A stretch of 64,000 nucleotides of DNA from Candidatus Acutalibacter stercorigallinarum. Lineage in GTDB: Bacteria; Bacillota; Clostridia; Oscillospirales; Acutalibacteraceae. Below the pieces are notes generated by a model. It searched no databases. It worked only from the letters and a program-made list of their open reading frames with translations, and was not told where the DNA came from. The position numbers were made by a program, and so were the translations under genes. Positions 6,478 through 59,344 of the stretch are shown piece by piece. The stretch spans positions 1-64,000 of the forward strand of contig DXIW01000028.1 in NCBI GenBank assembly GCA_019112625.1. Reading direction: 5' to 3'. Positions within the stretch are counted from its first letter, which is position 1; the number at the start of each line of letters is the position of its first letter.

Positions 6478-6646
6478 TTATCTTGTTTCCCGGAGAAAAC
6501 CCTGCTGGAATGCGCCGGGGAATTGGAACTTTTTCTCCAAGCCGTCAAAGGAGACCGTAATAACACCTTTCTCAATGGTGGTGACTTTCCCAGTGCCGAA
6601 GGCTTTGTGCGTTACCATGGAGCCGGGGCTATATAGCAGATGTCGA
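6478..6646 (-). pseudogene. 3' remnant of a gene cut off at the CRISPR array
   Basis: Reading leftward from the array edge, the frame LLYSPGSMVTHKAFGTGKVT continues as KGVITVSFDGLEKKFQFPGA to a TAA at 6478-6480. It has the look of a small beta-barrel domain found at the C-terminus of larger bacterial proteins, with no start of its own except an internal ATG at 6618. No ribosome binding site precedes that ATG. The frame runs open to the first repeat at 6647, so the 5' part was lost where the array now begins. Confidence 0.55.
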
Positions 6647-7590: not shown

Positions 7591-7633
7591 ACTAAACGGA
7601 TCCCTATTATAAGCCATTCTGTTTAGGTGAAAG
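7591..7633 (-). promoter_or_regulatory. CRISPR leader and array promoter
   Basis: Only 32 bp separate the cas2 stop from the first repeat. On the minus strand this leader contains a perfect TATAAT (complement of 7606-7611), placing the transcription start about 9 nt from the first repeat. The -35 region would fall inside the cas2 3' end (CTTTCA or CCTTTC, a weak match). This is an unusually short leader for a type I-E array. Confidence 0.6.
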
Positions 7634-8492: not shown

Positions 8493-8513
8493 AGTAATTA
8501 CAACGATTACCGC

Positions 8514-10083: not shown

Positions 10084-10092
10084 AGGATCACC

Positions 10093-12444: not shown

Positions 12445-14042
12445 GATGGAATCCCTCCTTTTTCACCGTAGATCCTGTTCAGCTCCCACAAGAAGTGATT
12501 GAAAGCTTTTGGCGCCGCATGGTACACTTTGAGCTCCTTGTTTCCCTTTTTGGATTTTACACATCGGCCCACCAAGGCGCTGGGACCGGCCTCCTCCACA
12601 AGGGCCTGGCCCACCTGGCGGGCGATACGCTTGGCCTGGCTGCGCCAAGCGAGCACGGCCTCGTCGATGTCTTCCTCTGGGTCCAGGGCGGCAAGCCAGC
12701 GGCGGAACGGCTGGTCGATGGCGAAATAGAAACGCGCCCTGGCTGTTTCCGGAGCTGCTTGCCCCCCGGCGGACTTGGCGACCTCTTCGGCAAGGCCGCC
12801 CACTGCTCTGGCGATTTCTTCACAAAAACGGACCTCTTGACTGATTTTAGAAGGGACCCCCACGTGTGAGGAATCCAACACAAAACGGTGAAAGGATAAA
12901 GAATCCGAAAAAGCGTCGTTGACGAAAAAGTCCTTGTCACCGTAGACAGCGCCAACAGATGTAAACTGCACGATGGATTTCCTGTCCATGTAGTCTCTCA
13001 GTGCAACAATCCACTGGACAACACCAGGCGTGTGAGCGCTGGCTGCTGGGGCGAAAGCAGATGGAAATTCCCTCCACATCTGTTTTGCAGAATCATGCCG
13101 CAGGGGGAGATATGTCGTGGGGGCGTTTCTCTTCTCTGGGGCTTTGCGCCACAGGGTCATTTGCTCACAAAAAGCGTTTTCCCGTTCAAAAAAGTCTCCC
13201 CCAATAAGCCGGTAACCCGTGACTCTACTTTCCTCTCGATGGAGAAAAATTCTGCGGGATTGCAAGGTTAACAAGGTCGCTTGGTTGTCCGGGAGGGGAA
13301 TCTCGGTCCGTTCCCCACTGCGGGGCTGATCCAGCTCCCAATACGGGCGAGGAGGCGCCCACAGCTCTTGTCCATCTTTTAGCAAAACCAAGTTTAACAG
13401 AAGCGTCTCAGCCAAGGTGTTACCGCGGGCTAAAAACAACCCAATTCTGCCCAACCAGCCCGCTCCAACAGAGGGGAGCCCTTTGCCTTTTGGTTTCGAA
13501 GAGGTGTCATCAAAACTATTGAGATAGAGCAGCCACCTTGCGGCTTGGCTATACGTAAGAGAGTCTTTTTCAGTTCCGCTATAGGATTGAAACAGCCGGT
13601 ATTTGTTTTCGCTTTCAGAAATTTCCCCGTTCAGCTTCTTGGCTCCATACTCGGTTCCAATCTGGGCCTCTAGCACCTGATAAAAAGGCCTCTCTGGGTG
13701 AAACAGCCAGAACCGGTCCCGCCAGGCCGCCAAGTACTCCAAGATGGGTTTTTCTGACAGCTGTTTTTTCTGCCACAGCTGGCCCCAACGGTCTATAGCC
13801 TCTTCCTCGTCTTCCAAGGGGGAGGGATTTCCCTCCGGGTCTACCCGATAGAAAACGGTTTGCAGCACAGCCAAAAGCAAGCGCAGAACCGCCACGTCCT
13901 GGGTGGGCAGCTCCCCTGCCAAACCGGCATACTCGTGGGCGTGAAGCAACGCATCCGTGATAGACACTTCTTTTAGCGTGCACTCTGGCGCGCGCACCCG
14001 AATCCACGGTTCCTCCAGCAAATTAAATTCCATCTCTTTCAC
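12441..14042 (-). CDS. cse1: Cse1 (Cas8e/CasA) large subunit, PAM recognition
   Basis: A 533-residue type I-E large subunit. It starts with FNLLEEPWIRVRAPECTLKE (family signature NLLxEPWIPV), followed by the DALLHAHEYAGLAGELPTQD segment and the four-helix C-terminal bundle. Cse1 reads the PAM and recruits Cas3. The GTG at 14042 is chosen because AGGAGG lies 6 bp upstream; it overlaps the cas3 3' end by 20 bp. An internal ATG three codons on is an alternative. Confidence 0.96.
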   Translation of the reverse strand: MKEMEFNLLEEPWIRVRAPECTLKEVSITDALLHAHEYAGLAGELPTQDVAVLRLLLAVLQTVFYRVDPEGNPSPLEDEEEAIDRWGQLWQKKQLSEKPILEYLAAWRDRFWLFHPERPFYQVLEAQIGTEYGAKKLNGEISESENKYRLFQSYSGTEKDSLTYSQAARWLLYLNSFDDTSSKPKGKGLPSVGAGWLGRIGLFLARGNTLAETLLLNLVLLKDGQELWAPPRPYWELDQPRSGERTEIPLPDNQATLLTLQSRRIFLHREESRVTGYRLIGGDFFERENAFCEQMTLWRKAPEKRNAPTTYLPLRHDSAKQMWREFPSAFAPAASAHTPGVVQWIVALRDYMDRKSIVQFTSVGAVYGDKDFFVNDAFSDSLSFHRFVLDSSHVGVPSKISQEVRFCEEIARAVGGLAEEVAKSAGGQAAPETARARFYFAIDQPFRRWLAALDPEEDIDEAVLAWRSQAKRIARQVGQALVEEAGPSALVGRCVKSKKGNKELKVYHAAPKAFNHFLWELNRIYGEKGGIPS

Positions 14043-16752
14043 AGGCTTCCTCCTTTCCGTAGGTCAAACCGCGCTCTCTGTCGTAGACAATTCTTGTTCC
14101 AGCCAAGTGGGTGGAGAATTCCTCGTCCAAGAGCAAGACCAGTTCCCCCTCGAGCATGGGCGCCTGCTGCCACTGACCCAAGAAACAGCGGTTTTGGTCT
14201 TCCAGTTCCCCAATGACGGCGTCTATGGCCCAGTGGCGGCTGAAATAACCAGGCAGCCGCAGACGCTGCCGGGCAATAGCTCGGCTTTCCTCCTGGGAGG
14301 GCGGCCTGTCCGTTGGAACAGCAGCCCCGCCCTCCTGCCATGGGAGGAATCCCACGCTGCCATCCCGACATTTCATCATGACCAGCACCTCGATGGAGGG
14401 GTCTCCGTCCCGGACAGCGGCGCGGGCCTGGGATTCGGAGCGGGCCCTCTCATCCCGCATCCAATCATCCAGCACCGCGGGCCCGGCCAAAACTGTGCGT
14501 TTTTTGGGCGGCAAGATGAGGAATTGGCCGGCGTTCTCCCGCTTGGATTTCTCTTTCAGCTGATATAGCTGCAGCGCACGCTCACTCTCCTCTGTTTCAG
14601 AGAGCACATCCTGCTCTTCCCAGCCGTAGGTGTCCTGTACCAAAGAGGGAATGTCCTCCGGAAGATGGACGGCAGAGGGGAGCAGCATCTGGGTGCGCCA
14701 CAGCAGCCATTCCCCGTACACGGCTTTGCTGCCCTCATCAAAGCCGTCCTCCGCCGTCAAGACGACACACCTCGCCTGCCGCAGCCGGGGAGGGCGGTAG
14801 GGATCGTGGCCGGGGTGGCGGTGTTCCCGCCCGATCCTCTGGAGAAGCAGGTCCATAGGACAGAGCTCCACCACCAAAAAGTCAAAGTCAATGTCCAGCG
14901 ACTGCTCCAACACCTGGGTCCCCACCACAATCAGCCTGTCCCGCTGTTCTGGAGTAGATCTTTTTCCCAGGCGTTCCAACAAGATCCGCTCCTTCTCCGC
15001 GCGATCCGGCATGAGAAATTGGGCGTGGAACAGAACCACCTGATACTCCGGCATCTTTTCTTGAAGCTGGTTCGCAATCGCCTGGGCCTTTTTTACCGTG
15101 TTGACAATGATACCCGCGCAGCCGCCCTCTGCCAGAGCTTCCTCCAATAGTTGGGGAAGGGCGGCCTCCCGGGCGGTTTGTAAGGCGACCTGGCGCTGCC
15201 CGGCAGACAGCGCCACCACACGCTGCTGCACAGTGGTTCCCGACGTCCAGGTGAGCAGGGGATACCCCCGGTTGGAGAAAAGTTTGCGGTCCACCGTTTT
15301 CGCTCCCAGATAGGCCGCCACCAGTTCTGCCCGGCGTTGGGCGGGCAGCGTGGCGGAAAGCAAGAGGACCGGCACATGATAGCAGCCCAGCCAGGACAGG
15401 GCCCTGTCAAGATAGGTGCTCATGTAGGAATCGCAGGCGTGAATTTCATCGACGACCACCACTTTGCCGGCCACTCCCAAGTGGCGGAGCATCAGGTGCT
15501 TCTGCTTCAAAGCAGCCATCAATAACTGATCCACCGTGCCAATGACGAAATCCGCCAGCAGCGCCTGTTTGTTCCCCTGAAACCAGGGGTGTACAGAGAC
15601 CCCTTCTTCGGGGCCCTCTTTCTCAACAAACGATCTTCCCGGAAAAAACTCCCGGTAGTCCTCGTTCAGTTCCGCCATGCCGTGGGCCAGCCGGATGGAA
15701 TGGGCGGTGTCTTCCGACTGGGTCTGCGCCCAGGCGGTCAGCCTTCCAAAGATACCGTTGGCGGTGGCCTGGGTGGGCAATCCGAAGAAAAGGCCGCCTG
15801 CCCCCCACTTTGCGGCAAAGGTTTCCGCCGCGGCCAAGGCGGCCTCTGTTTTGCCCACGCCCATTTGGGCTTCTAATATCAGGAGGCCGGGCGCCTCCAT
15901 GGAGGCTGCCACATCCAGTACGGCCTGCTGCACCTCGTTGGGAGGAAAGCCAAACCGGTCTTCAAAGGAGCCCGAATCCATGGGAAGGTAAGACAGCGGC
16001 TGCCAGGGTTCCGGCAGATGGATCCGCTCCCACCCGTCCGCGATCCGCTTCGGATACAGGGATGCACTGCCCAGATCTTCTGCAGAGAGCAAAGGGAAAA
16101 AGCTGGTGTTGGAGGCGATCCAGTCCGCCATAATGAGAAGCCCTGTCAGCAAAAGCTCCTGGGGAATGGTCAAAACGGGCAGGTCCTCTACCGACGCGAA
16201 GCCCGCGTCCCGCAGATGCTGCTCCAGCATCTGTTTCCAGAGGGAAAACCAAAGGTCTTTTTCCCCCTTCCCATAGTAGTTGTTATGATAGGACTCTATA
16301 TTTTCCTCAATATACTCGTTTTGCCCGTTCTCCTGGGGCTTTCCGTGGTGGGCTCCTGCGATGGAGGCGACGCCCTTTGGGCAGCCCAGCTGCAACAAAA
16401 TGGCCTCGCTCGCTTTGGCGTGAGGCGTTGCCCGGGGAAAGACAAAACGCTCCGGGAAAACACACTGCCTGGCTAACCTCTCCCGGACCTCCGGCAGGCG
16501 TTGCGTGATGTTGCTTTGAAATAGGACAGTTGCTTTTCCTATATCGTGGACAGCCCCCAAAAAGTACGCTAATTTCGAAAGGAGAGCCTCTTCCAACCCC
16601 AAAGCTGCCCTGGCTCCGTTAGAAAGCCAGTGGATGGCTAACCGCCGCATAACTTCGGCGGTGTCGCGGCTGTGTATCCATAGGGGAAGCCAGAGGCCTG
16701 CATTTTGCGGATCTGTTTTTGCGGCCAAAAAGGAAAGCAGATGAGAATCCAT
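14023..16752 (-). CDS. cas3: Cas3 HD nuclease-helicase
   Basis: A 909-residue effector that degrades Cascade-bound DNA. The N-terminal HD nuclease carries AVHDIGKA (His69-Asp70) and GAHHGKP; the superfamily 2 helicase follows with Walker A EAQMGVGKTEAAL (about residue 290), DExH box VVVDEIHACD, SATLP motif III, and motif VI within LLQRIGREHRH. I start at MDSHLLSF because GGAGGGGGG stands just before it; a longer frame starts 22 codons upstream without such a site. It is the first gene of the cas operon, 58 bp after the promoter at 16810-16837. Confidence 0.97.
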   Translation of the reverse strand: MDSHLLSFLAAKTDPQNAGLWLPLWIHSRDTAEVMRRLAIHWLSNGARAALGLEEALLSKLAYFLGAVHDIGKATVLFQSNITQRLPEVRERLARQCVFPERFVFPRATPHAKASEAILLQLGCPKGVASIAGAHHGKPQENGQNEYIEENIESYHNNYYGKGEKDLWFSLWKQMLEQHLRDAGFASVEDLPVLTIPQELLLTGLLIMADWIASNTSFFPLLSAEDLGSASLYPKRIADGWERIHLPEPWQPLSYLPMDSGSFEDRFGFPPNEVQQAVLDVAASMEAPGLLILEAQMGVGKTEAALAAAETFAAKWGAGGLFFGLPTQATANGIFGRLTAWAQTQSEDTAHSIRLAHGMAELNEDYREFFPGRSFVEKEGPEEGVSVHPWFQGNKQALLADFVIGTVDQLLMAALKQKHLMLRHLGVAGKVVVVDEIHACDSYMSTYLDRALSWLGCYHVPVLLLSATLPAQRRAELVAAYLGAKTVDRKLFSNRGYPLLTWTSGTTVQQRVVALSAGQRQVALQTAREAALPQLLEEALAEGGCAGIIVNTVKKAQAIANQLQEKMPEYQVVLFHAQFLMPDRAEKERILLERLGKRSTPEQRDRLIVVGTQVLEQSLDIDFDFLVVELCPMDLLLQRIGREHRHPGHDPYRPPRLRQARCVVLTAEDGFDEGSKAVYGEWLLWRTQMLLPSAVHLPEDIPSLVQDTYGWEEQDVLSETEESERALQLYQLKEKSKRENAGQFLILPPKKRTVLAGPAVLDDWMRDERARSESQARAAVRDGDPSIEVLVMMKCRDGSVGFLPWQEGGAAVPTDRPPSQEESRAIARQRLRLPGYFSRHWAIDAVIGELEDQNRCFLGQWQQAPMLEGELVLLLDEEFSTHLAGTRIVYDRERGLTYGKEEACERDGI

Positions 16753-16809
16753 GTGTTCCCCCCTCCTTTCGATTGTGACATTTCCAACTTGCGAAAGATA
16801 CTTGGCTAT

Positions 16810-16837
16810 ATTATACATTATAAAACGTATTTTGCAA
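16810..16837 (-). promoter_or_regulatory. Promoter of the cas operon
   Basis: On the minus strand TTGCAA (16832-16837) and TATAAT (16810-16815) are separated by 16 bp, and a second TATAAT overlaps upstream in an AT-rich stretch that stands out from the GC-rich surroundings. It is the only good promoter upstream of cas3. All eight cas genes are overlapping or within a few bases, so it probably drives the whole set. Confidence 0.75.
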
Positions 16838-42966: not shown

Positions 42967-43197
42967 TCACCCCTCCACACCCCGTGTAGAGGTCAAAAGC
43001 GTCAGCTCCCCGTTTTCCTCTTTGCGGAAGGTGTTTTCCTCGTAGAAAAAGGCGCAGTGAAATTTCCCGCCTTCAAAGCTGGGCACCGCGTAGTACAGGC
43101 GGTTGACCAGGGTGGTCTCGTCCTCGTAAACGTCATGGTCCCCCAGGGGCACGGGCGCGGCGGGATTCTTCGGGGAGTTGGGTGACTTCATGTGCAT
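42967..43197 (-). CDS. Small protein overlapping an XRE gene (copy 1, 76 aa)
   Basis: A 76-residue soluble protein with the core PVPLGDHDVYEDETTLVNRL and YYAVPSFEGGKFHCAFFYEE, family unknown to me. The ATG lies inside the 3' end of the XRE gene, in another frame, with GGAGG 6 bp before it; the overlap is 65 bp. The second copy at 47451-47690 has nearly the same protein and the same overlap, which supports both as real genes. Both proteins keep the downstream FRKEENGELTL and diverge only in the last few residues. Confidence 0.75.
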   Translation of the reverse strand: MHMKSPNSPKNPAAPVPLGDHDVYEDETTLVNRLYYAVPSFEGGKFHCAFFYEENTFRKEENGELTLLTSTRGVEG

Positions 43198-43459
43198 CGG
43201 GCGCCTCCTGAAAACGGGCGGTCTCTACCAGTTGGGCGAAGGTCCGGACGAAGGCCAGGACCTCCTCGGAGAGCTGGCCGAGAAACAGCGCCAGCGTGGT
43301 GGCGCACGGCAGATGGACGCCCTGCTCCAGCTTTTGGTAGCTGCGGGCCGTCAGGTACAGCGCCTCCGCCAGCTTTTCCTGGGTGAGGTGCTTCTCCAGC
43401 CGGAATCCCCGCACCTGGCCGACCCAAAAAACAAGGAACTGCCTCTCGTACCTTCGCAA
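43133..43459 (-). CDS. Small XRE-family regulator (copy 1)
   Basis: A 108-residue helix-turn-helix protein: FRLEKHLTQEKLAEALYLTARSYQKLEQG is the DNA-binding part, followed by a helical tail (LALFLGQLSEEVLAFVRTF). It most likely represses its own promoter through the palindrome at 43535-43552. I take the TTG at 43459, eight bases after GGGAGG, as the start; the frame is open upstream. The partner copy on the other arm of the inverted duplication is at 47186-47515. Confidence 0.82.
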   Translation of the reverse strand: MRRYERQFLVFWVGQVRGFRLEKHLTQEKLAEALYLTARSYQKLEQGVHLPCATTLALFLGQLSEEVLAFVRTFAQLVETARFQEAPDAHEVTQLPEESRRARAPGGP

Positions 43460-43527
43460 CGGCAAGACCTCCCACAAAACTACACGAACCTTTTTGCTTG
43501 CAGGAAAATCTTACCAGTTGCAACGCT

Positions 43528-43552
43528 ATTCTACCACGTCCTATAGGACGTG
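43528..43552 (-). promoter_or_regulatory. Promoter with palindromic operator before XRE copy 1
   Basis: CACGTCCTATAGGACGTG at 43535-43552 is a perfect 18-bp palindrome. On the minus strand it is followed at once by TAGAAT (43528-43533), so it fills the spacer just upstream of the -10 box. The same site with one change is at 47093-47110 and a diverged one at 44288-44305, each before a related XRE gene. Confidence 0.75.
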
Positions 43553-43643: not shown

Positions 43644-43876
43644 ACTCTCATCCACGCCCTCCGTGGGGAGGGCGACTACCTGGAAATCGCCATAGGGTAC
43701 CTCAAAACTATTTCTATCCACGCCCTCGCAAGGAGGGCGACACCTCAACGGTGAGAGGCGGGAGTTGGTGGTGCGATTTCTATCCACGCCTTCCGCAAAG
43801 GGAGGACGACTCCGCTCTCCGTCCCACCACCAGGGAACAGGTGAAATTTCTATCCGCGCCCCCAAGAGGGGGCGAC
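43644..43876 (-). CRISPR. Orphan type I-C-like mini-array (4 repeats, 3 spacers)
   Basis: Reading on the minus strand, 31-35-bp repeats of the form GTCGCC-stem-GGGCGTGGATAGAAAT lie at 43846-43876, 43776-43810, 43710-43741 and 43644-43676, with spacers of 35, 34 and 33 nt. The last repeat ends GGATGAGAGT rather than GGATAGAAAT, as seen in leader-distal repeats. The stems vary but keep pairing (CCCCCTCTTGGGGG, CTCCTTGCGAG). This matches the subtype I-C repeat plan, yet no I-C cas genes are in the window. Confidence 0.75.
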
Positions 43877-43945: not shown

Positions 43946-44212
43946 TCAGGCGACCTCCTCGGAGTGGCCTGCTTCTGCCAGCTTGCCAAAAGTGTGGACG
44001 AACGCGAGAATTTCCTGGTCGGGCAGCAGGTTGAGAAATAGGGGCAGCGTGATGGCCGACGGTCTGTGAACGCCCCGCTCCAGCTTTTGATAATTGCGGA
44101 CGTTAACGTGCAGCTTTTCTGCCAGCTTTTCTTGGGAGAGGCTCATTTTCGCACGGAACTCCCGGACGCGGACGACCCAAAAGTCGAGAAACAAGTCCTC
44201 GGACTTTCGCAA
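43946..44212 (-). CDS. Small XRE-family regulator (third paralogue)
   Basis: An 88-residue helix-turn-helix protein related to the two copies in the inverted duplication: RAKMSLSQEKLAEKLHVNVRNYQKLERGVH, then LPDQEILAFVHTFGKLAEAG. The C-terminal extension of the other two is missing and it has no overlapping partner gene. TTG start at 44212 with AGGAGG eight bases upstream. Its promoter region carries a related palindrome at 44288-44305. Confidence 0.8.
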   Translation of the reverse strand: MRKSEDLFLDFWVVRVREFRAKMSLSQEKLAEKLHVNVRNYQKLERGVHRPSAITLPLFLNLLPDQEILAFVHTFGKLAEAGHSEEVA

Positions 44213-44287
44213 GCGCAAGACCTCCTACAAAACCATACAACACTTTTTGCTTACAGGAAAATCTTACCAATTCTCACCCTGGCTTAC

Positions 44288-44305
44288 CACATCCCATGGG
44301 ACGTG
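44288..44305 (-). promoter_or_regulatory. Palindromic operator-like site before the third XRE gene
   Basis: CACATCCCATGGGACGTG is an 18-bp near-palindrome with one mismatch, about 75 bp upstream of the XRE start. It corresponds in place and sequence to the sites before the other two copies. Confidence 0.6.
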
Positions 44306-44394
44306 GTTTGTCGGTTTTTGCCTATGCACTTATACTTTTATTATACCATAGAAAAAAGACGACCGCAACAGTCGCTCTATAACAGGTGATTTTG

Positions 44395-44712: not shown

Positions 44713-44788
44713 TGGTGGACCCAAAGGGATTCGAACCCTCGACCTCTCGGATGCGAACCGAACGCTCTCCCAGCTGAGCTATGGGCCC
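44713..44788 (-). tRNA. tRNA-Ala (anticodon CGC)
   Basis: A complete 76-nt cloverleaf on the minus strand with encoded CCA. The acceptor stem GGGCCCA/TGGGTCC has the G3-U70 wobble pair that identifies alanine. D-stem GCTC/GAGC; anticodon stem TTCGG/CCGAG with loop TTCGCAT, anticodon CGC (reads GCG); T-arm GAGGG-TTCGAAT-CCCTT. All stems pair. Confidence 0.95.
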
Positions 44789-46793: not shown

Positions 46794-46827
46794 TTGGCCC
46801 GCCCTGCGCAGTATGCTATACTATAAT
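46794..46827 (+). promoter_or_regulatory. Promoter/leader of the second mini-array
   Basis: TTGGCC (46794-46799) is 17 bp from TATACT (46817-46822), and an overlapping TATAAT sits at 46822-46827. It ends 14 bp before the first repeat. 46620-46793 otherwise contains nothing I can identify. Confidence 0.55.
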
Positions 46828-46840
46828 AAGCGATTAGGCC

Positions 46841-47006
46841 GTCCCCCTCTTGGGGGCGTGGATAGAAATTTCACCTGCTCCCTGGTGATGGGACGGAGAG
46901 CGGAGTCGCCCTCCCTTTGCGGAAGGCGTGGATAGAAATTTTGGCCTGGAGGACGGCAAGTACGGGCGAGCCAGTCGCCCCCTCTTGCGGGGGCGTGGAT
47001 AAGAGA
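46841..47006 (+). CRISPR. Orphan type I-C-like mini-array (3 repeats, 2 spacers)
   Basis: Repeats at 46841-46869, 46905-46939 and 46974-47006 end in GGCGTGGATAGAAAT, the last in GGATAAGAGAT. Spacers are 35 and 34 nt. The first spacer equals the first spacer of the array at 43644-43876 (read on the minus strand) except for two bases. The repeat before it lacks the first G-C pair (GTCCCCCTCTTGGGGG). A promoter points into it. No cas genes are adjacent. Confidence 0.75.
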
Positions 47007-47092: not shown

Positions 47093-47117
47093 CACGTCCC
47101 ATAGGACGTGGTAGAAT
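47093..47117 (+). promoter_or_regulatory. Promoter with palindromic operator before XRE copy 2
   Basis: CACGTCCCATAGGACGTG at 47093-47110 (one base off perfect symmetry) is followed immediately by TAGAAT at 47112-47117, as in copy 1. Confidence 0.7.
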
Positions 47118-47185
47118 GGCGTTGTAACTGGTAAGATTTTCCTGCAAGCAAAAAGGTTCGTGTGGTTTTGTGGGAGGTCTTGCCG

Positions 47186-47515
47186 TTGCGAAGGTACGAG
47201 AGGCAGTTCCTTGTTTTTTGGGTCGGTCAGGTGCGGGGGTTCCGGCTGGAGAAGCACCTCACCCAGGAAAAGCTGGCGGAGGCGCTGTACCTGTCGGCCC
47301 GCAGCTACCAAAAGCTGGAGCAGGGCGTCCACCAGCCATGCGCCACCACGCTGGCCCTGTTCCTCGGCCAGCTTACCGACCAGGAGGTCCTGGCCTTCGT
47401 CCGGACCTTCGCCCAGCTGGTGGAGACCGCCCGTTTTCAGGAGGCGCCCGATGCACATGAAATCACCCAACTCCCCGGAGAATCCCACCGCGCCCGTGCC
47501 CCTGGGGGACCATGA
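47186..47515 (+). CDS. Small XRE-family regulator (copy 2)
   Basis: A 109-residue helix-turn-helix protein, nearly identical to copy 1 in the recognition region (FRLEKHLTQEKLAEALYLSA); the differences are a few residues (YLSARS for YLTARS, LTDQEVLAF for LSEEVLAF). TTG start at 47186 eight bases after GGGAGG. It shares promoter, operator and downstream overlapping gene with copy 1, and so probably co-regulates with it. Confidence 0.82.
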   Translation: MRRYERQFLVFWVGQVRGFRLEKHLTQEKLAEALYLSARSYQKLEQGVHQPCATTLALFLGQLTDQEVLAFVRTFAQLVETARFQEAPDAHEITQLPGESHRARAPGGP

Positions 47516-47690
47516 CGTTTACGAGGACGAGAACACCCTGGTCAACCGCCTGTACTACGCGGTGCCCAGCTTTGAAGAGGGAAAATTTCACTGCTCTTTC
47601 TTCTTTGAGGAAAACACCTTCCGCAAAGAGGAAAACGGGGAGTTGACGTTGGTCCACTCGGAATATGGGATAGACGCCGCTAAAATCTGA
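47451..47690 (+). CDS. Small protein overlapping an XRE gene (copy 2, 79 aa)
   Basis: A 79-residue protein, near-identical to 42967-43197 up to ENGELTL, then different (VHSEYGIDAAKI), marking the end of the inverted duplication at about 47650. The ATG at 47451 follows GGAGG by 6 bp within the XRE gene; overlap 65 bp in another frame. Conservation in both copies of a frame that overlaps a real gene argues that it is expressed. Function unknown. Confidence 0.75.
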   Translation: MHMKSPNSPENPTAPVPLGDHDVYEDENTLVNRLYYAVPSFEEGKFHCSFFFEENTFRKEENGELTLVHSEYGIDAAKI

Positions 47691-48469: not shown

Positions 48470-49315
48470 ATGGATGACCGGCGTATCAGCCGAGACCAGA
48501 TCGAGGGCTTTGCCCGAATGCTGCGAAGGGAGGAGCTCCGCGAGAGCACCATCGAAAACTATCTCCGGCACGTGGCGGCGCTGGGGGCGTGGATGGGGGA
48601 CGCGCCTGTGACCAAGGAGCGGGTGGCGGCGTGGAAGGAGTCGCTGCTGGAGGGCGGGCGCTGCCCCGGGACCGTGAACAGCATGCTGGTGTCCGCCAAC
48701 CGGTTTCTGGCCTTTCTGGGGTGGGGCGACTGCCAGGTAAAGGCGCTGCGCGTCCAGCGCCAGCTCTTCCGGGAGAACCAGCGGGAGCTGACCCGGGGGG
48801 AGTTCGACCGGCTTATCGCCGCGGCCAGGGCGGCGGGGCGGGAACGGCTGCTCTTGCTGATGGAGACTATCTGCTCCACGGGCATCCGGGTAAGCGAGGT
48901 GAAGTATATCACCGTGGAGGCCCTGCGGTGCGGCAAGGCGGAGATCGCCCTGAAGGGCAAGATCCGCACCATCCTGCTCCCCGCCAGGCTGTGCCGGAAG
49001 CTGCTGAAGTACTGCAAAAAAAGAAACACCGTCTCCGGCGAGGTGTTCCTCACCAAAAACGGTTCCAGCCTGTCCCGCAAGCAGATCTGGGCGGAGATGA
49101 AGTCCCTGTGCGGGCTGGCGGGGGTGGCGCCCTCCAAGGTGTTCCCCCACAACCTGCGGCACCTGTTCGCCCGGGCCTTTTTCAAGGCCTGCCGGGACGT
49201 GGCCCAGCTGGCGGACGTGCTGGGCCACAGCTCTATGGAGACCACCCGCATCTACCTGATCTCCACCGGGGCGGAACACGCCCGCACCCTGGAGCAGCTG
49301 CGGCTGGTATCGTAG
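48470..49315 (+). CDS. Tyrosine recombinase, probable DNA invertase of the adhesin switch
   Basis: A 281-residue, full-length tyrosine recombinase. Residues 1-~95 are the SAM-like core-binding domain (ESTIENYLRHVAALGAWMGD). The catalytic domain has Arg in CSTGIRVSEVKYI, His-x-x-Arg in FPHNLRHLFARAF, LGHSSMETTRIYLI with the second His and the nucleophilic Tyr. It is closest to XerC/D-like and phase-variation recombinases, shorter than phage integrases. AGGAGG precedes the ATG by 7 bp. Four bases beyond its stop is the first of two inverted 19-bp sites, so it most likely inverts the segment 49319-49568. Confidence 0.9.
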   Translation: MDDRRISRDQIEGFARMLRREELRESTIENYLRHVAALGAWMGDAPVTKERVAAWKESLLEGGRCPGTVNSMLVSANRFLAFLGWGDCQVKALRVQRQLFRENQRELTRGEFDRLIAAARAAGRERLLLLMETICSTGIRVSEVKYITVEALRCGKAEIALKGKIRTILLPARLCRKLLKYCKKRNTVSGEVFLTKNGSSLSRKQIWAEMKSLCGLAGVAPSKVFPHNLRHLFARAFFKACRDVAQLADVLGHSSMETTRIYLISTGAEHARTLEQLRLVS

Positions 49316-49881: not shown

Positions 49882-49978
49882 CGATTTTATGGCAGTGCCA
49901 CACACGCCCGGGGGCGGCAGCCCGCCGGGGGAATAGCGAGAAAGGCAGCTCTGCCCTGTGAAAAGGAGTTCGATTTCC

Positions 49979-52900
49979 ATGGCAAACTACACAAATCGCG
50001 GCAGCCACTACAAGGCCGCCTCTCGGGAAGAAAAGCGCCGGCCCTGGCGGAAAAAGGGCCTGGCGGTTCTGGCCTGCCTGCTGGCAGTGGCCTTTGCCGC
50101 CGGCGTGGCGGCCCTGGCGGTGCCCGGGCTGTTCCGCAGCGGGGATGAGGCCACCCTGACAAAGACCATCTACTGGTGGGACAACGACAACGAGGACGGC
50201 AAGCGCCCCGGTGTGGACAAGTATGAGAAGCCGGTGCTGGTCCTCGGGGATGAAGCGAACGATGTCCAATACAAGAGCGATGATCCAGACGCCCTGGCGC
50301 TCTTGAAGTCCCTGAACTACCCGGACGGCTGGCCCGATGTGGTGGTCGCGCCGGACCAGGGGAATACCTGGAAGGTTACCACCAATCCGAAATCGCTCAA
50401 CAAGATTGTGTATGAGGTGGACGAGGACGGCAATCTGGTGGCTACCGACAAAAAAGTCACCTGGAGCTTGAGTCAGGGATTCCCGCCGGAGGTAGAGGGC
50501 TATACCGCCATTTACGCCGAGCTGGCGGGAGAGCTGGGGGACTTGTTCGGCAGCTTCTCCACAGTGGGGGAGGACGACTGGCACTACGTAAAGAGCACGG
50601 ACTACACCTTTACCATCGACCTGCGCAGCGGCAGCCTGGAGAACCTTTCCGGCATTACCGACGCCATTTTGCAGCAGTTTGAGCTGGAGGCCTCCTTTAC
50701 CGCAGGCGGCGAGCAAAAAACACCACATGTCTCCCTGGCTGAGCTCGAAGGCGAGCCCGGCTATGCCACAGTGCAGTTCCAGGTGAAGGACGACGGGGAT
50801 GAAGAGTGGGAAAACATCGACCTGGACAACCCGGACGCTATGAAGGCAGTCCACGATGAGTTGCGGCTGTCCTTGACCATGCCCAAATATACCATCGAGG
50901 GGCAGCCCATCACCTATAAGGTGGCGGAGGCCAACACGGAAGAGAAACCAGCCGACGGCAAGCTGGACTACCAAATCCCCGGTTTTGAGGGTACGGACGA
51001 CGCGGAGGACTACTTCGCCATTAAGTACGACAACACCAACGCCACCAACCACGGCAGCGCCACCGACGGCGCCTACAGCGGCGGGTCGGTGATTCTGACC
51101 CTGACCGGCACCACGGATTATAAGGCCACCAAGGTGTGGCAGGACAAAGACGGAAAGAAAGAGGATCGCCCCGCCGACGTGACCCTGGAGCTGTGGCGCT
51201 ATGTGGCCGGGCAGCCGCTGGAATCTGCCGCCGCCGTGCGGGACAGCGCGGGGAATATCTACACTTGTCCGATCTCTGCGCAATCGGATTCCGGCGTGGG
51301 TGTGCCTGTGATGTTCTATGATGCGGATGCGGAAACGGACGCGGAGGGAAATAAAATTCCCGCCGCCTTCCCCAAATACGACCCCGAGGGGAACCGGTAT
51401 ATCTATGTGGTGAAGGAGTACGGCCTGGACGGGAATTACACCCAGGTGTTCGGTGAGGTCGACCCCAGCACAGGCGATGTGAGCGGCGACTTCATCAAAG
51501 ACCTGGACGGGGACGGCGTTGTGTATGATAACGTAGGCGGCCGGCAGTCCGGCAACACCTACCTGTACAACGGCGGCACCCTGAACAACGTGCTCAACGG
51601 CACCACCACGGCCACCGCCACCAAGGTGTGGAACGCCTCTGCCTTCCAGGCGGAGTTTGGCGGCGTGACGGTGGAGCTGACCCTGCAGAGCCGCCCCTCC
51701 AAAGAAGGGCAGGGTGCAGAGGAAGGATGGACCAACACAAACGAAACCTACTCGCTCACCGGCTTCCAGGCGGAGAACCTGGCGGGGCTGTCCTACTCCG
51801 GGGCCTTCCCCCAGTACGACAACCTGGGCCGCAAGCTGGAGTACCGCTGGGTGGAGACCAATGTGACCCAGGTACTTACGGATGAGAATGGGGCTGAGAC
51901 AGAATTTACAACAGGATTTACGCGAGACGAAACCACCGGCACCGCCACCTTTACCCTAAAGCAGAAGGACTTTTCGGGCAATACGCGCGAGGTGAAGTAC
52001 ACCTCTGAGACCGAAGTGGGCGAGGATGGCAACCCCAAGATTACCAACTCCGTGGCCAACCAGGTGCACTACGAGGTGGACAAGTGGTGGGCGCTGAAAG
52101 AGGATGAGGAGGTTCCTGAGGACGCGGAATCCAACCCTAATTACTGGCAGGATGAAAGCGGCCAGTGGTACACCAAGGACATCAGTGCGGATGGTAATTC
52201 GACCATTCAAGATAGCAACGCCGAGAAAGCCACCTTCTACCTGTACCGGGTGGAGAGCGGCCAGCAGGTGCCCATGGATGAGCCGGGAGGGTATTACCTG
52301 GCCTTCACCATGACAAAGGATGAAGTAACATTTTTTGACGACCCCGGTTCCGTTACGGACGAGGAATTTGCGAATATAAAAATTACCGAAACGGGTGAAG
52401 GTAACCCCTGGCACGTGAACATCACCGGGCTGCCGGAGTTTGACGAGGGCGGCCGCCAGTACGACTATGTGCTGGTGGAGGCGGACGCCTCCCCCCGGTA
52501 CGAGACAGAGCGCGAGTCGGACGGGTACTACACCGAAGTGTACAACCCCCGGGGGCCGGGGGAGGTCCTGCAGATTCTGGTGCAGAAAAACTGGATTGAC
52601 GACAGCGACACCGTCCACCGGGAGCCGGTGGTCATCCAGGCCTACAAAAAGTCGACGGGCGAGAAAATTGAGGACGCTTCTGTAACGCTGGAGAACGGCC
52701 TGTGGTACGACTGGATCACCATTCAGTTGGGCAGCAGCGGCCAGGGGGAAGGTAACAACCCCAACGAGCCCGAGACCAATCCCGACACCAATGGGAACGG
52801 CGGTGAGGAGAACATCCAGCCCGGCGGCGAGCCCACCCAGCCCGACGATAGCACCATCGTGACCGGCGGCGAGACCGAGGGCGGCGAGACCGAGACCGAC

Positions 52901-55900
52901 GGCAATACCGATGTGACCACCCAGCCCGGCGAGGAGAACGACGAGACTGAGGAAATTACCAATACCGACAGCGACAACACCCCGGAGGAATCCGAGGTGA
53001 GCGAAAGCCTGCTCGCCAACGAGGGGAAGGCGCTGGCGGCGCCCAAGACTGGCGACGGTGAAGGCGAAATTCAAGACCCCCTCAATGAAAACGAAGGCTC
53101 CACCGGTAATGGCGGCACTCCCAGCGGCGGCACCGAAGATGCCAAGCCCGACGGTGTGCAGAGCATTAAGGATATTTACCTGCTGGAGGTCTCGATTGGG
53201 GAGGTTTCTGTCAAAAACACCCTGAAGGACGGCGACCTCAGTGACGGCATTGGTGAGGATGAAGAACCGTGGTACGACCAGGTCACCGGCGACGTGACCA
53301 GCCAGTACCACCGGTACCAGGTGACTTACTCGGACTTTACCCCCATCGATGGCACCAAACCGGATTTGGAACCGGGCAAGAGCGGCAAGTACAGCGCGAC
53401 GGTCACCAACCGGCGGCTGGGCAATATCGACATCACCGTCCATAAGGTGTGGAATTCCGGCGAAATCGGCAGCAAAGAAGAACAGGCCCTGCAGCTTGCG
53501 TTGCATCAAGCCAAAATGCCCGGCTCCGACCCCGAAGAGCCCGGCGGCCTGAGCCTGGCCCTGAAGCTGACTTTCCACGAGAGCATGGGCACGGAGCATG
53601 GATATACCATTGGGGACGATTACGTCATGCTGGGGAAAGGCGCGGAGGAAACGCCCATCTACAATGTGGAGCGGAAAGTGAAAGACGAGACCGGGGAGGC
53701 TGTTCCTTCCGACGAAGGCTTCACGGGTGAGGAGCCGGGCAGCTCTGTCATAAAAATCTACCTGCCGGACGAAGCCATCGGAGATGATGGCGAAAAAGCC
53801 GGGAAAGAGCAGACGTACTATTTCAACAACCTGCCCAAGTTTGACACCACGGGCACCATTGTGCGCTACACCGTGGAAGAAGGGTTGGTGAGCGAAGATG
53901 GCACGTTTATCTCCTTCGATGAGTATATCGCCAAGGCGGAACCTGGCGATGCGTTGGCGAAGGAGCTGAAGAAGTGGGTCCACACCATGAAGGAGGTCTA
54001 CTATGTGGCCGCTTCCGACCCCGGCGCGGCCATTCCCACCACGTCTACCAAGGACGTGGACTTCCAGACGTTCGAGGCCACCAACAGCCTCACCGGCACG
54101 AAAGATGTGCAGTGGTACAAGGAGTGGAACGACGCCTACCGCAACGAGGCGGGCGAGCGGCCCGACATCTTCCTGGATGTTTTCCGGTTAGTCCACACGG
54201 ATGACGATAACACCCGGCTGGAGCTGGTGGTGAAGGACTACCAGTGGACGCCCACCGAAGACAAAGACCCCGTGAACTACTGGACGGCCACCATGGAGGG
54301 CGTGCCCCTGTATGACAGCCTGGGGTACGAAATCACCTACTTCGCCGTGGAGCGGGCTGTGAATGATACAGAGCGGTTCGACTATGGCCCGGTGCGCTAC
54401 TACAACACGAAAGGTGACTTGATGGGCGACCGGCTGGAGGTGGACAGCGAGTATTTGGAGGAGACCGCGGAGGGCGTACTGTATGCGTGTTCCCTCAAAG
54501 ATGGCGATGACTATGTGGAAGTCGTGGGCCTGGACGAGCCCCTGGGGGAGCGCTACGCTGCCCGGAAGGTGAACTATGCCCTGGGGGAGGGCGGCACCTT
54601 CGAGAACTACCTGCGGGCCAACCCCAACCTGGCGGGCAGCAAGCTGTGGCAGGGGGTGGAATCCGGCTACCCCACCGACCAGCTGCCCCAGGTGACCTTC
54701 GCCCTGTACCAGACCACCCTGGGGAAGGAGACCGAGCCCGAGAACCCGGACGCGGAGACCGACCCCGAGAACCCGGGCGAGGAGGTAGCCACCCTGCAAG
54801 TCAACTGGGGCGGTGATTTTGGCATGCTGAATGGCAGCCTGACCACCGATTTCTGGTTCTTTATGAAGGGCGACTGGCAGGTAGATTGGAAGGACGACCG
54901 CTACGTCTACACCTCTGATGAGAGTAGTGGCACATACTATGTAAACAGCGACTGGGAAGTGGTTAACGAGAACGGCGATGACATCGAATTGCCCGACGAC
55001 GTGCGCCTGCCCCAGTACGACGAGGAGGGCAACCGCTACGCCTACACCATGGTGGAGCGGAGCGTCACCATGATGGGCCCGAATGGGAAGGACAAGATCA
55101 CGATCAAGCTCGACCCAACGACCGGAGAGCCCAGTGAGGACAACGAGGAGGAAGCTGTAGCCTTCTATAAGTCCATCTTCAAAAACGCCAAGATGACCGA
55201 CGGGGCGACCTTCCAGGCCACCAACGTGTACAACGACGAGCAAGAGGGCCAGCTGGCGGTGGAGAAGTGGCTCAACGTGGGCGAGACAACGCCGGTGAGC
55301 TACCCCGCCATCCAGGTGGAGCTGTACCGGGCTGTTACCAGCCAGAAGGACAATGAGGACGCTTGGAGATTGGTGGACTCCCACATCTGGAAGTCCAACG
55401 AGGTGCAAGAAAAGTTTACGGGTGATACCCCTGATGCGTGGGGCTACCTGGAATATACCTTTGAAAACCTGCCCATCTACGCCCCCAACGGGGAGAAGTA
55501 TGTCTACAAGGTGGTGGAGGTCAAGGAGGATTTCCTCGACGGGTACGACACCTGGGCGGTGGAAGGGCCGGTTGCAGAGGGTGACCTCGACGGAAAAATG
55601 GAGGATGACAATCGAAAAGAAGTAGTATCCGATTTGGAAGCCACAGAAGTCCTGGAGGGCAGTGAGACTACCCCAGACCTGGACACCGCCACATTTATCA
55701 ACAAGCGGGATGCCGACAGCGTTAAGCTGCAGGGCACCAAAGTGTGGGAGGACTGGGGCGACGAAATGGAGCTGCGGCCTAGTGATGCGGAAAATGTCAT
55801 TACGCTGACGGTTTCCCGCCGTGCGGACGCCCAGCCCGGGGAGAACAATGCCATTGAATCCCAGCCTTTGACTGCGGGCACGGATTACACTGTCTCTTGG

Positions 55901-58900
55901 AATATACCAGAAGATAATAATGGAGAACCCTGGACCTACACCATCACTGGCGCGAACGGCGAAGAGCTGGAGCAGTACGCCCCCAACGGCATGCCGTGGA
56001 TCTACCAGGTGACGGAGACGATCAGCGACCCGTATGATTATTACAATGCCAGCACCAACACGGTCACGTTTGGCACGGAGCCGGTGAACGGCTTCTTGAC
56101 CATCAGTGGGACAACTCCCATCACCAACAGCCTGAAAACCAGCGCCGCGTTCCAGAAGAAGTGGGTGGACGAGGACAACAAGGAAATCTCCACGGACTAC
56201 TTCGGCGATGTGACGGTGGAGTTTAAGCTGCAGGTGGCTTTTGCACCCGATACCGGTGCAGAAGCCGACTGGCAGGACGCCGAGACCTTCTTTACAAACG
56301 ATACTGCTCGGGACGGCCAGGTTTCCGTGCCGAGTAGTGTGCTCAACATGGGGACATACCAGTTTGAGGGCAGCACAAACGAGGCCAACGGCTGGCAGCA
56401 TACTTTCTCGAACCTGCCCCGGGCGGTGAAGGTTGGAGGTGAGACCACCAAACTCACCTACCGCGTGGTGGAGACCAAAGTGACCTACACGCTGCCGGGT
56501 GAGGAGAATGCTACGGAAGTTGAGGTGGAGATTAACGGCGATAAATATACCGTTACGGACAGTAAAGGCATTTTCACGGAAGCTACCTTAACTGAGCCGA
56601 CTGCTGGCGGCGCCACCTGGACTACCACCAACACCATGAGAACCGTGGACCTGACGATCACCAAGAAGTGGGTCGACCAGAACAATAAATACCACACCCG
56701 GCCCGAGGGCGAGAACGGTGAGTGGGTGGTGGACTTCCTTATCCAGTACCAAGACGCGGAAGATGTGGAGACGGGTACATATCATAACGTCACCACCAAG
56801 GACGACGAGCCCCTAATTGTGTCCATCAGCGGCACGGCCGAGAACGAGGGCACCACCACCGTGAAGGACCTGCCGTATGTAGAAGGCCGCCAGTACTACG
56901 CTTTCGAGCTGGAGCCTGGATATACAACTGATAATGTAGACGAATACATCTGTGATGAGAACGGGGGAACTTTCCACATCGGTTATACGGTGGACTACGG
57001 GGACGAGAACCCGGTACAGGTTGAGGAGCCCACAGACGGCCAGACCGACTTCATCACTACCGCTACCAACACACTGGACACCACCTCGGTGAGCGTAAAG
57101 AAAAACTGGGAACCCGAGAAACTGCCCGGTGGCGACCAGTACCCCTCTGTGACCATGAAGGTGCAGTATAAGTCTGGGCCCAACGAGGACGATTGGGAAG
57201 ATTTGGAGGGCTGTACTGTTACCCTAAATGGGAGTGAAACCCTTGCTTGGGAGCACACCTTTGAGGATTTGCCCAAATACTACCCCGAGGCTGCCGGATA
57301 TGCCGAGAAAAGGGAGACCCAGTACCGTGTGGTAGAGTTGGATGGCGACGGCTATGTGCAGGTAGAAGAGAAGTATGACGGAGAAAACAAAACCTTTACC
57401 TTCACCAACAAGCCGGTGGTGGACTTTACGGTTACCAAGCAGTGGAACAGCGTGCCGGAGGCGGCCTATAATTGGCAAGTGACCGTGGGCCTTTACCGCA
57501 CGACAGAGGAGGTAACCGACTACACAAGCCTCGCTTACGATGTGGAACACATGGTCACGAACGAAAACGGCCAGCTGTTGACCGTGGAGCTTTACGGACC
57601 CGACAACCTGACCGCCACCTTTGAGGACCTGGACAAGTACTACATGGATGAGACCACGGGCGACTGCCTCGAGTACACCTACTACGTGAAAGAGCTGACG
57701 GTTGGCGGTGATAAAATCGAAGGCGCCAGCTTTACCAAAGAGGTGGACGGCAAGGACGTTGCCTTCACCGTGGACTACACCTACGCCGAAAACGCCGCCA
57801 CCGTGGTGAACCGGGTGGAAGGCTCCCTCCAGGTGAAGAAGGTTTGGCATGACAAGGGCGGGGAAAGTGCCCGCCCGGAGACAATCACCGTGGGGCTGTA
57901 CCGCTTTGATAAAGCGTCTCAGGACTATGAGGCGGTGAAAGACCCGAGCAATCTCGAGAAAAACTACACCCTTACCCTGGATGAAGAAAACGACTGGCAA
58001 GGCACCTTTGAAAACCTGCCGGAGTACTACAGCGACGGGAACGGCAACCGAGGCGAGAAAATCCAGTATGCGGTTTACGAGCTGGAGAATGGCACGCGAA
58101 TCGAGCAGGGAGGTACCCTAACTGCAACGGACGATGGAAGCTACACCGTCTACTACGATGGGTTCACGATCCACAACGTGCGCGAGGTGGATTTGACCAT
58201 TGAGAAAACGGTCACCGGCGACGCGGCGGACCCCGAGAGGAAGTTTGCCTTTGAGGTCGGCTTTACCTACGATGAGACTATGCCGGAAGCGATCCACACC
58301 GGGCCCTACACCTACACGGTGTACCAGAAGGGTGACGGGGACGAGGCAACTCAGGTGAAACAAGATACCATTCCCAGCAGGGAGGGCACCATTACCCTCA
58401 CCGGCGGCCAGTACGCGGTCATCGAGGGCCTGCCCGCCGGGACGGCGTACACCGTGACCGAGCAGGAGGCCAACCAGGACGGCTATGTCACCACGGCCAC
58501 TAACGCAAGCGGCACCGTCACCGTTGACGGGGAAAACAAGGTTTCCTTTACCAACTGCCGCGCCCCCGGGGATCTGATTATCCGCAAGGAGGTCACCGGC
58601 AGCGGCGGCGACCGGAGCAAGGAGTGGACGTTCCACCTGAAAGCGGATCTGCCCGATGGCAGGACGCTTTGCGGCGAAGTAGCTTGTGAGCGCAACGGGA
58701 AGTCGGAGACCTTGTTCTTTGATGAAATCGACGGTTACGCCACCTTTATCCTGAAATCCGGCGAGAGCCTGACAATCAAAGACCTTCCCAACGGCACGGT
58801 CTTTACCGTGACGGAAGCGGGAGCCAACCAGGGCGGCTACACGACCACGGTGGACGGCACCGGTGCTTTACTGCCAGATAAAGATGGCAGGACAGGCACG

Positions 58901-59344
58901 ATCGACGCCGAGGATAACAACTTGGTGACCTTTACCAACCACAAGCCCGGCGGCGGAGGCCCCGGGCCTGGGCCCACCCCCACCCCCACACCGGAGCCGG
59001 AGGAGACGCCTACGCCTGAACCGGGCGAGACGCCTACCCCCGCCCCGGAGGGGTCGCCCAGCCCCGAGCCCAGCGGCACACCGGGACCGGATGGGACGCC
59101 TACCCCGGCGCCCAGCGGCTCCCCCAGCCCCAGCGGGTCGCCGACCCCGGGGCCGGGCGGGTCGCCTACACCGGCCCCCACCCCGACGCCCCCTGGGGGC
59201 GACACGCCAGACGACACCCCCCAAACCGGGGACCCCACCCACACCTTGTGGTGGGCCCTGGCAGGGGCGGGCGCGCTGGCCGGACTGGGCGCCCTGTGGG
59301 CCACCCGGCCCAAGGGCCATAAGGCCCGCCATCGGAAGAAGTAA
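49979..59344 (+). CDS. Giant Cna-B repeat surface protein, sortase substrate
   Basis: A 3121-residue surface protein. Residues ~20-50 are a basic N-region plus a hydrophobic helix (LAVLACLLAVAFAAGVAALAV). The body holds about 14 Cna-B-like domains, each opening with a KxW motif (ATKVWQD, VQKNWID, VHKVWNS, VKKVWHD and others), then two SpaA-like domains (IEKTVTGDAAD, IRKEVTGSGGD), a Pro/Thr/Gly stalk and the signal TPQTGD, a membrane helix and a KARHRKK tail. Residues ~919-1062 are an acidic linker with an inner APKTGD. I start at 49979, ten bases after AAAAGGAG, not at the GTG seven codons upstream. Its less GC-biased codons suggest recent gain. Confidence 0.95.
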   Translation: MANYTNRGSHYKAASREEKRRPWRKKGLAVLACLLAVAFAAGVAALAVPGLFRSGDEATLTKTIYWWDNDNEDGKRPGVDKYEKPVLVLGDEANDVQYKSDDPDALALLKSLNYPDGWPDVVVAPDQGNTWKVTTNPKSLNKIVYEVDEDGNLVATDKKVTWSLSQGFPPEVEGYTAIYAELAGELGDLFGSFSTVGEDDWHYVKSTDYTFTIDLRSGSLENLSGITDAILQQFELEASFTAGGEQKTPHVSLAELEGEPGYATVQFQVKDDGDEEWENIDLDNPDAMKAVHDELRLSLTMPKYTIEGQPITYKVAEANTEEKPADGKLDYQIPGFEGTDDAEDYFAIKYDNTNATNHGSATDGAYSGGSVILTLTGTTDYKATKVWQDKDGKKEDRPADVTLELWRYVAGQPLESAAAVRDSAGNIYTCPISAQSDSGVGVPVMFYDADAETDAEGNKIPAAFPKYDPEGNRYIYVVKEYGLDGNYTQVFGEVDPSTGDVSGDFIKDLDGDGVVYDNVGGRQSGNTYLYNGGTLNNVLNGTTTATATKVWNASAFQAEFGGVTVELTLQSRPSKEGQGAEEGWTNTNETYSLTGFQAENLAGLSYSGAFPQYDNLGRKLEYRWVETNVTQVLTDENGAETEFTTGFTRDETTGTATFTLKQKDFSGNTREVKYTSETEVGEDGNPKITNSVANQVHYEVDKWWALKEDEEVPEDAESNPNYWQDESGQWYTKDISADGNSTIQDSNAEKATFYLYRVESGQQVPMDEPGGYYLAFTMTKDEVTFFDDPGSVTDEEFANIKITETGEGNPWHVNITGLPEFDEGGRQYDYVLVEADASPRYETERESDGYYTEVYNPRGPGEVLQILVQKNWIDDSDTVHREPVVIQAYKKSTGEKIEDASVTLENGLWYDWITIQLGSSGQGEGNNPNEPETNPDTNGNGGEENIQPGGEPTQPDDSTIVTGGETEGGETETDGNTDVTTQPGEENDETEEITNTDSDNTPEESEVSESLLANEGKALAAPKTGDGEGEIQDPLNENEGSTGNGGTPSGGTEDAKPDGVQSIKDIYLLEVSIGEVSVKNTLKDGDLSDGIGEDEEPWYDQVTGDVTSQYHRYQVTYSDFTPIDGTKPDLEPGKSGKYSATVTNRRLGNIDITVHKVWNSGEIGSKEEQALQLALHQAKMPGSDPEEPGGLSLALKLTFHESMGTEHGYTIGDDYVMLGKGAEETPIYNVERKVKDETGEAVPSDEGFTGEEPGSSVIKIYLPDEAIGDDGEKAGKEQTYYFNNLPKFDTTGTIVRYTVEEGLVSEDGTFISFDEYIAKAEPGDALAKELKKWVHTMKEVYYVAASDPGAAIPTTSTKDVDFQTFEATNSLTGTKDVQWYKEWNDAYRNEAGERPDIFLDVFRLVHTDDDNTRLELVVKDYQWTPTEDKDPVNYWTATMEGVPLYDSLGYEITYFAVERAVNDTERFDYGPVRYYNTKGDLMGDRLEVDSEYLEETAEGVLYACSLKDGDDYVEVVGLDEPLGERYAARKVNYALGEGGTFENYLRANPNLAGSKLWQGVESGYPTDQLPQVTFALYQTTLGKETEPENPDAETDPENPGEEVATLQVNWGGDFGMLNGSLTTDFWFFMKGDWQVDWKDDRYVYTSDESSGTYYVNSDWEVVNENGDDIELPDDVRLPQYDEEGNRYAYTMVERSVTMMGPNGKDKITIKLDPTTGEPSEDNEEEAVAFYKSIFKNAKMTDGATFQATNVYNDEQEGQLAVEKWLNVGETTPVSYPAIQVELYRAVTSQKDNEDAWRLVDSHIWKSNEVQEKFTGDTPDAWGYLEYTFENLPIYAPNGEKYVYKVVEVKEDFLDGYDTWAVEGPVAEGDLDGKMEDDNRKEVVSDLEATEVLEGSETTPDLDTATFINKRDADSVKLQGTKVWEDWGDEMELRPSDAENVITLTVSRRADAQPGENNAIESQPLTAGTDYTVSWNIPEDNNGEPWTYTITGANGEELEQYAPNGMPWIYQVTETISDPYDYYNASTNTVTFGTEPVNGFLTISGTTPITNSLKTSAAFQKKWVDEDNKEISTDYFGDVTVEFKLQVAFAPDTGAEADWQDAETFFTNDTARDGQVSVPSSVLNMGTYQFEGSTNEANGWQHTFSNLPRAVKVGGETTKLTYRVVETKVTYTLPGEENATEVEVEINGDKYTVTDSKGIFTEATLTEPTAGGATWTTTNTMRTVDLTITKKWVDQNNKYHTRPEGENGEWVVDFLIQYQDAEDVETGTYHNVTTKDDEPLIVSISGTAENEGTTTVKDLPYVEGRQYYAFELEPGYTTDNVDEYICDENGGTFHIGYTVDYGDENPVQVEEPTDGQTDFITTATNTLDTTSVSVKKNWEPEKLPGGDQYPSVTMKVQYKSGPNEDDWEDLEGCTVTLNGSETLAWEHTFEDLPKYYPEAAGYAEKRETQYRVVELDGDGYVQVEEKYDGENKTFTFTNKPVVDFTVTKQWNSVPEAAYNWQVTVGLYRTTEEVTDYTSLAYDVEHMVTNENGQLLTVELYGPDNLTATFEDLDKYYMDETTGDCLEYTYYVKELTVGGDKIEGASFTKEVDGKDVAFTVDYTYAENAATVVNRVEGSLQVKKVWHDKGGESARPETITVGLYRFDKASQDYEAVKDPSNLEKNYTLTLDEENDWQGTFENLPEYYSDGNGNRGEKIQYAVYELENGTRIEQGGTLTATDDGSYTVYYDGFTIHNVREVDLTIEKTVTGDAADPERKFAFEVGFTYDETMPEAIHTGPYTYTVYQKGDGDEATQVKQDTIPSREGTITLTGGQYAVIEGLPAGTAYTVTEQEANQDGYVTTATNASGTVTVDGENKVSFTNCRAPGDLIIRKEVTGSGGDRSKEWTFHLKADLPDGRTLCGEVACERNGKSETLFFDEIDGYATFILKSGESLTIKDLPNGTVFTVTEAGANQGGYTTTVDGTGALLPDKDGRTGTIDAEDNNLVTFTNHKPGGGGPGPGPTPTPTPEPEETPTPEPGETPTPAPEGSPSPEPSGTPGPDGTPTPAPSGSPSPSGSPTPGPGGSPTPAPTPTPPGGDTPDDTPQTGDPTHTLWWALAGAGALAGLGALWATRPKGHKARHRKK

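Follow-up and report, generated by a model that had tools for sequence, protein, structure and literature searches.

The window, a stretch of 64,000 nucleotides from Candidatus Acutalibacter stercorigallinarum, carries on its minus strand a small CRISPR array (array A) of four repeats of the type I-C kind and three spacers, with a gene for a small XRE/HTH_3 regulator on either side (Table 1). A preliminary description had reported this array, its spacer sizes, its worn last repeat, its XRE neighbours in both arms and the lack of I-C cas genes; the array and its worn end are real, the spacers measure 35, 34 and 33 nt, both regulator genes are present, and no I-C cas gene was found within the 64-kb window. 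The array A repeats have the 3′ end GGATAGAAAT in three cases and GCGGATAGAAAT in the first. Two further mini-arrays, array B in the window and array C on another contig, close, like array A, on worn repeats (GATGAGAG, GATAAGAG and CGGGAGAG for A, B and C, respectively), and a fourth cluster, array D, lies near broken I-C cas genes. The 12-mer GTGGATAGAAAT occurs nine times in the 2.19-Mb assembly, always inside these four clusters, and not once in a backwards-read control of the whole genome, which excludes chance. The window also holds a complete type I-E CRISPR-Cas system, the repeat of which differs from the I-C-type repeat.

Table 1. Arrays, cas genes and neighbouring features (window positions unless a contig is named)
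Feature	Position	Strand	Remarks
Complete type I-E CRISPR-Cas system	6642-16818		16-repeat array
76-aa ORF after XRE gene	42970..43197	-	paralogue at 47457-47690; no family match
Small XRE/HTH_3 regulator downstream of array A	43136..43477	-	upstream region with dyad CACGTCCTATAGGACGTG
Array A, whole	43645-43876	-	4 repeats, 3 spacers
Array A repeat 4	43645..43676	-	3′ end worn to GTGGATGAGAG
Array A spacer 3	43677..43709	-	33 nt; no target match found
Array A repeat 3	43710..43741	-	
Array A spacer 2	43742..43775	-	34 nt; no target match found
Array A repeat 2	43776..43810	-	C-A mismatch in stem
Array A spacer 1	43811..43845	-	35 nt; copy of array B spacer 1, 2 substitutions apart
Array A repeat 1	43846..43876	-	leader-proximal; GTCGCCCCCTCTTGGGGGCGCGGATAGAAAT; hairpin with 7/8 arm pairs
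Second XRE/HTH_3 regulator, upstream of array A	43949..44218	-	paralogue of array C's
Candidate promoter	46794..46822	+	extended -10 type, TTGGCC-17-TATACT, TG before; consensus match only
Array B, whole	46838-47005	+	3 repeats
Array B repeat 1	46838..46869	+	
Array B spacer 1 (B1)	46870..46904	+	32/35 to phage contig IMGVR_UViG_3300003155_000273 (L094)
Array B repeat 2	46905..46939	+	
Array B spacer 2 (B2)	46940..46973	+	32/34 to VirB4-type conjugative ATPase gene of a congener
Array B repeat 3	46974..47005	+	worn 3′ end GATAAGAG
XRE/HTH_3 regulator downstream of array B	47162..47515	+	94% aa identity to array A copy over 114 codons
Array C	G000:C24:18109-18272		outside the window, another contig
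cas8c (5′-deleted), then intact cas7c	G000:C45:4759-6667 (L010)		
Array D	C45:6713-7004		five degenerate repeats, near broken I-C cas genes

Type I-C descent of the repeats

The repeats have an I-C sequence, form a hairpin and end in GTGGATNGAAAT, with spacers of about 32-36 nt at regular spacing; the handle AGAAAT is retained in most of them. Their consensus, GTCGCCCTCC-loop-GGAGGGCGTGGATAGAAAT, is identical in stem and handle, loop aside, to the repeat GTCGCCCTCCACCCGGAGGGCGTGGATAGAAAT, which another genome of the same family carries 20 times without variation. It also resembles the cas-linked I-C arrays of the congeners G007 and G016, where GTCGCCTCCCTCGCGGGAGGCGTGGATTGAAAT and a one-base loop variant are found. 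Together with the array of the family member G200, these share the same stem and the repeat end GTGGAT(A/T)GAAAT, and have spacers of about 33-36 nt and a repeat period of 66-70 nt, as here. They differ from arrays A-C in size and completeness: G007, G016 and G200 have 9-20 near-identical repeats and a leader ending in TTGCT, whereas the mini-arrays have three or four diverged repeats and neither the leader end nor adjacent cas genes. The TTGCT end is present in six relatives with homogeneous arrays and is absent at arrays A, B, C and D, which lowers the claim of continuing spacer acquisition but not that of I-C descent. Judged by these sequence features, arrays A-C are genuine type I-C CRISPR by descent.

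Spacer matches to a phage and a conjugative element

When all spacers were compared by BLAST with 60 related genomes, B2 had its best match in one congener (32 nt at 97% identity) and less similar ones in three others. The target gene encodes a VirB4-type conjugative ATPase, and TTC stands immediately 5′ of the protospacer in 3/4 homologues, including the best match. TTC is the experimentally confirmed I-C PAM, proved in Xanthomonas (PMC8406640). An 88% match of B1 in G427 lacked a TTC PAM and was rejected as a target; its sole use was to point to the protein motif ALRPITREQVE. Viral contigs were then scanned for this motif with a degenerate pattern that included neither the PAM nor most wobble positions, and a single contig was found, IMGVR_UViG_3300003155_000273, which has TTC directly upstream of the B1 match and carries phage genes, among them one for a DnaB-like helicase. 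Spacer 1 of array A matches the same phage gene at 30/35 positions, again with TTC upstream, and is thus farther from the target than its array B copy. Both B1 and B2 therefore correspond to mobile elements with a 5′-TTC PAM.

No convincing target was found for the other spacers. Exact scans of IMG/VR with the cores of the A1/B1, A2, A3, C1 and C2 spacers found none, nor did a degenerate-pattern scan for the B2 target, and no spacer had a good match in the rest of its own genome. In the phage and plasmid search proposed in the preliminary description, no spacer had a match among 50,697 phage and 72,556 plasmid records; the two targets came from viral contigs (B1) and related genomes (B2).

State of the I-C machinery

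A genome search for cas5c-cas8c-cas7c, also proposed earlier, was made with single family profiles on the 2.19-Mb, 86% complete assembly. It recovered an intact cas7c and a 5′-deleted cas8c but no cas5c; these two genes, which adjoin the degenerate array D, were the only I-C cas genes found. The cas8c frame spans profile positions 242-587 only, so that about 240 N-terminal positions are missing. The truncation falls inside a contig, and the sequence just upstream, as read from its translation, resembles a piece of some unrelated gene. The cas7c frame is intact and 75% identical to that of G007. In G007 the array adjoins a full operon in the order cas3-cas5-cas8c-cas7c-cas4-cas1-cas2-array, as read from ORF sizes and positions (cas7c was assigned by profile, the others by position, and cas8c and cas7c also by homology to the genes studied here); array D, in contrast, starts about 45 nt after cas7c with no intervening cas4-cas1-cas2. 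A Cas5d/Cas5c profile had no match in the 86%-complete assembly, the only Cas1 gene in the assembly is the I-E gene within the window, and the only Cas3 above the curated cut-off belongs to the I-E operon. The set of a functional I-C system (cas3, cas5c, cas8c and cas7c) was thus found only in part. At 86% completeness the missing genes weigh heavily without being conclusive, and another I-C operon, itself intact, may lie outside the assembly.

The retained portion of cas8c is the part that elsewhere also encodes Cas11c; in other I-C systems Cas11c is made from an internal start in this part of the gene (PMC7684278).

Repeat drift and stem pairing

Since the duplication that separated arrays A and B, the repeats have acquired three substitutions and one indel in 67 nt and the spacer two substitutions in 35; the repeats changed as fast as the spacer. 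The compensating stems of the preliminary description were upheld in part. Two stem pairs show double changes (pair 6, T-A/C-G; and, in repeat 3 of array C, pair 1, from C-G to T-A), but repeat 2 of arrays A, B and C shares a C-A mismatch and several mismatches lie at stem ends. Across the ten related mini-array repeats and eight arm pairs, a sample of little power, 72/80 pairs are standard (column-shuffle mean 69.0, p 0.0008) and 70 are Watson-Crick (mean 62.5, p 0.0001). Leaving out three redundant copies gave p 0.007 for standard and 0.001 for Watson-Crick pairs, and a null that scattered the same number of random changes gave p about 0.03. The cas-linked array D showed no excess over chance. 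On stem decay, which had been named as evidence against a function, the picture is mixed, and in the mini-array stems, where pairing is modestly above chance, some residual constraint could act. Given the common descent of the repeats, and given that changes from an array's active time persist, an excess of pairing is expected in relics too. The spacer-like rate of change in the A/B repeats, and the greater distance of array A's spacer from the phage target, speak against a residual function.

Probable copying of one array-XRE segment

All three mini-arrays adjoin paralogous small XRE-like (HTH_3) genes: array A is flanked by two, array B is followed by one and array C is preceded by one. Arrays A and C share a stretch 89% identical over 612 nt that includes the XRE gene with sequence ahead of it and reaches into repeat 1, and the stretch common to A and B extends from repeat 1 across the downstream XRE gene and the 76-aa ORF, with 95% nucleotide identity in the XRE gene and about 94% across repeat 1, spacer 1 and repeat 2. 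One ancestral segment explains the association, and the array-XRE link most likely reflects a single copied module, as these alignments suggest, and not repeated independent pairing. The dN/dS of the XRE genes was 0.25 for the gene downstream of array A against that of array B and 0.30 for the upstream gene against that of array C, which indicates, though on few changes, that the proteins are kept by purifying selection.

A fifth XRE copy, on contig C8, is a pseudogene with stop codons, and that contig has no GTGGATAGAAAT repeat; conversely, no XRE paralogue lies beside array D. Among relatives only weak XRE homologues were found, the best-scoring of them (32-36% identical) in congeners, with no I-C-type repeats nearby. 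Searches of contig collections returned no relative in viral contigs and two matches in genome contigs (32% over 59 residues, Oscillospiraceae MAGs).

A dyad, CACGTCC(C/T)AT(A/G)GGACGTG, precedes each XRE paralogue in the window (43535-43552, 44288-44307 and 47093-47110) and occurs also at the C8 pseudogene copy. It is a candidate operator or terminator.

Origin of the mini-arrays

Taken together, array A is very probably one of three small, orphan and decaying arrays left from a lost I-C system, as the preliminary description had allowed: I-C cas3 and cas5c were not found, cas8c is cut, no cas4-cas1-cas2 lies between cas7c and array D, the leader end is missing, and the repeats have diverged. 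We propose that a type I-C system once defended the lineage against phages and conjugative elements and was lost through deletion. One array, lying by chance between two small XRE genes, would have been copied with them elsewhere; the arrays would now drift without a leader or working effector, and purifying selection would act on the XRE genes for reasons unconnected with the arrays. Against decay as relics stand the excess of stem pairing, confined to the mini-arrays and drawn from few related repeats, the handle kept in most repeats, the promoter-like site 15 nt upstream of array B, the intact cas7c frame and the incompleteness of the assembly, in which a second I-C operon could be missed. 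Orphan arrays are a known phenomenon. In E. coli, an orphan, cas-less I-F array likewise lies beside a complete, working I-E system (cited in PMC12814883); the spacers of such I-F arrays target I-F cas genes, and those studied here do not target cas genes.

The same kept handle and stems, the promoter-like site and the gap in the assembly could instead speak for live mini-arrays served in trans by an I-C Cascade from the missing part of the genome or from passing mobile elements, and the targets of B1 and B2, with their TTC PAMs, still match at 32/35 and 32/34. This is improbable. The assembly contains no working I-C machinery: Cas5c, which processes crRNA in I-C systems (PMC7684278), was not found, cas8c is truncated inside a contig and the resident I-E repeat differs. 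The leader end is lost as well, and spacer 1 of array A has drifted further from its target than that of array B. The stem pairing, kept in the mini-arrays and not in the array beside the broken cas genes, would also suit hairpins still transcribed and selected after the loss of the I-C effector, as small RNAs with a new XRE-linked role, but we consider this very improbable. A functional unit in which repeat RNAs control the neighbouring XRE gene, or XRE controls the array, is likewise very improbable, although an XRE paralogue under purifying selection adjoins every mini-array. That pairing derives from the copying of one module, and the gene changes sides between arrays B and C. The C8 pseudogene has no GTGGATAGAAAT repeat on its contig, the distant XRE homologues of congeners have no such repeats nearby and array D has no XRE paralogue beside it, while the XRE genes share a conserved, dyad-bearing upstream region; the targets of B1 and B2, in a phage and a conjugative element, have TTC PAMs, and no spacer has a good match in its own genome. 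A last reading is an anti-CRISPR or guard device, with Racr-like decoy repeats or with spacers aimed at incoming I-C cas genes; orphan arrays in such roles have been described (PMC12814883; Racrs, PMC10651486). Racrs are likewise CRISPR repeats without cas genes, but they are solitary units in viral genomes, whereas several repeats with mobile-element spacers lie here in a chromosomal setting. Against the I-C loci of eight relatives the spacers scored no higher than their shuffled versions, and B1 and B2 have their targets in a phage and a conjugative element. In the sets searched, neither spacers or repeats directed at CRISPR-Cas nor a viral location was found, and the XRE gene had no relative in viral contigs; such a role is exceedingly unlikely and was rejected.

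As relics, the arrays provide a worked example of one CRISPR-Cas subtype dying in a lineage that keeps another, I-E. What is missing comprises cas3, cas5, part of cas8 and the genes for adaptation; cas7 and dispersed arrays linger, with array fragments carried along by gene duplication. They also illustrate how adjacency of an array and a regulator can mislead where a whole segment was copied; no new mechanism is opened by the orphan I-C arrays.

Additional features of the window

Rfam gave only a tRNA. A tRNA-Ala (CGC) at 44713-44788, near one edge of the XRE-array segment, is a possible integration site. A tyrosine recombinase (XerA/XerD-like) is encoded at 48470-49315, shortly downstream of the XRE segment of array B, and is followed by a repetitive, probably surface protein of 3128 aa (49958-59344). 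The Cas2e of the I-E system (7626-8492) carries a fused exonuclease domain of the DnaQ-like DEDDh type, an arrangement that occurs in other I-E systems.
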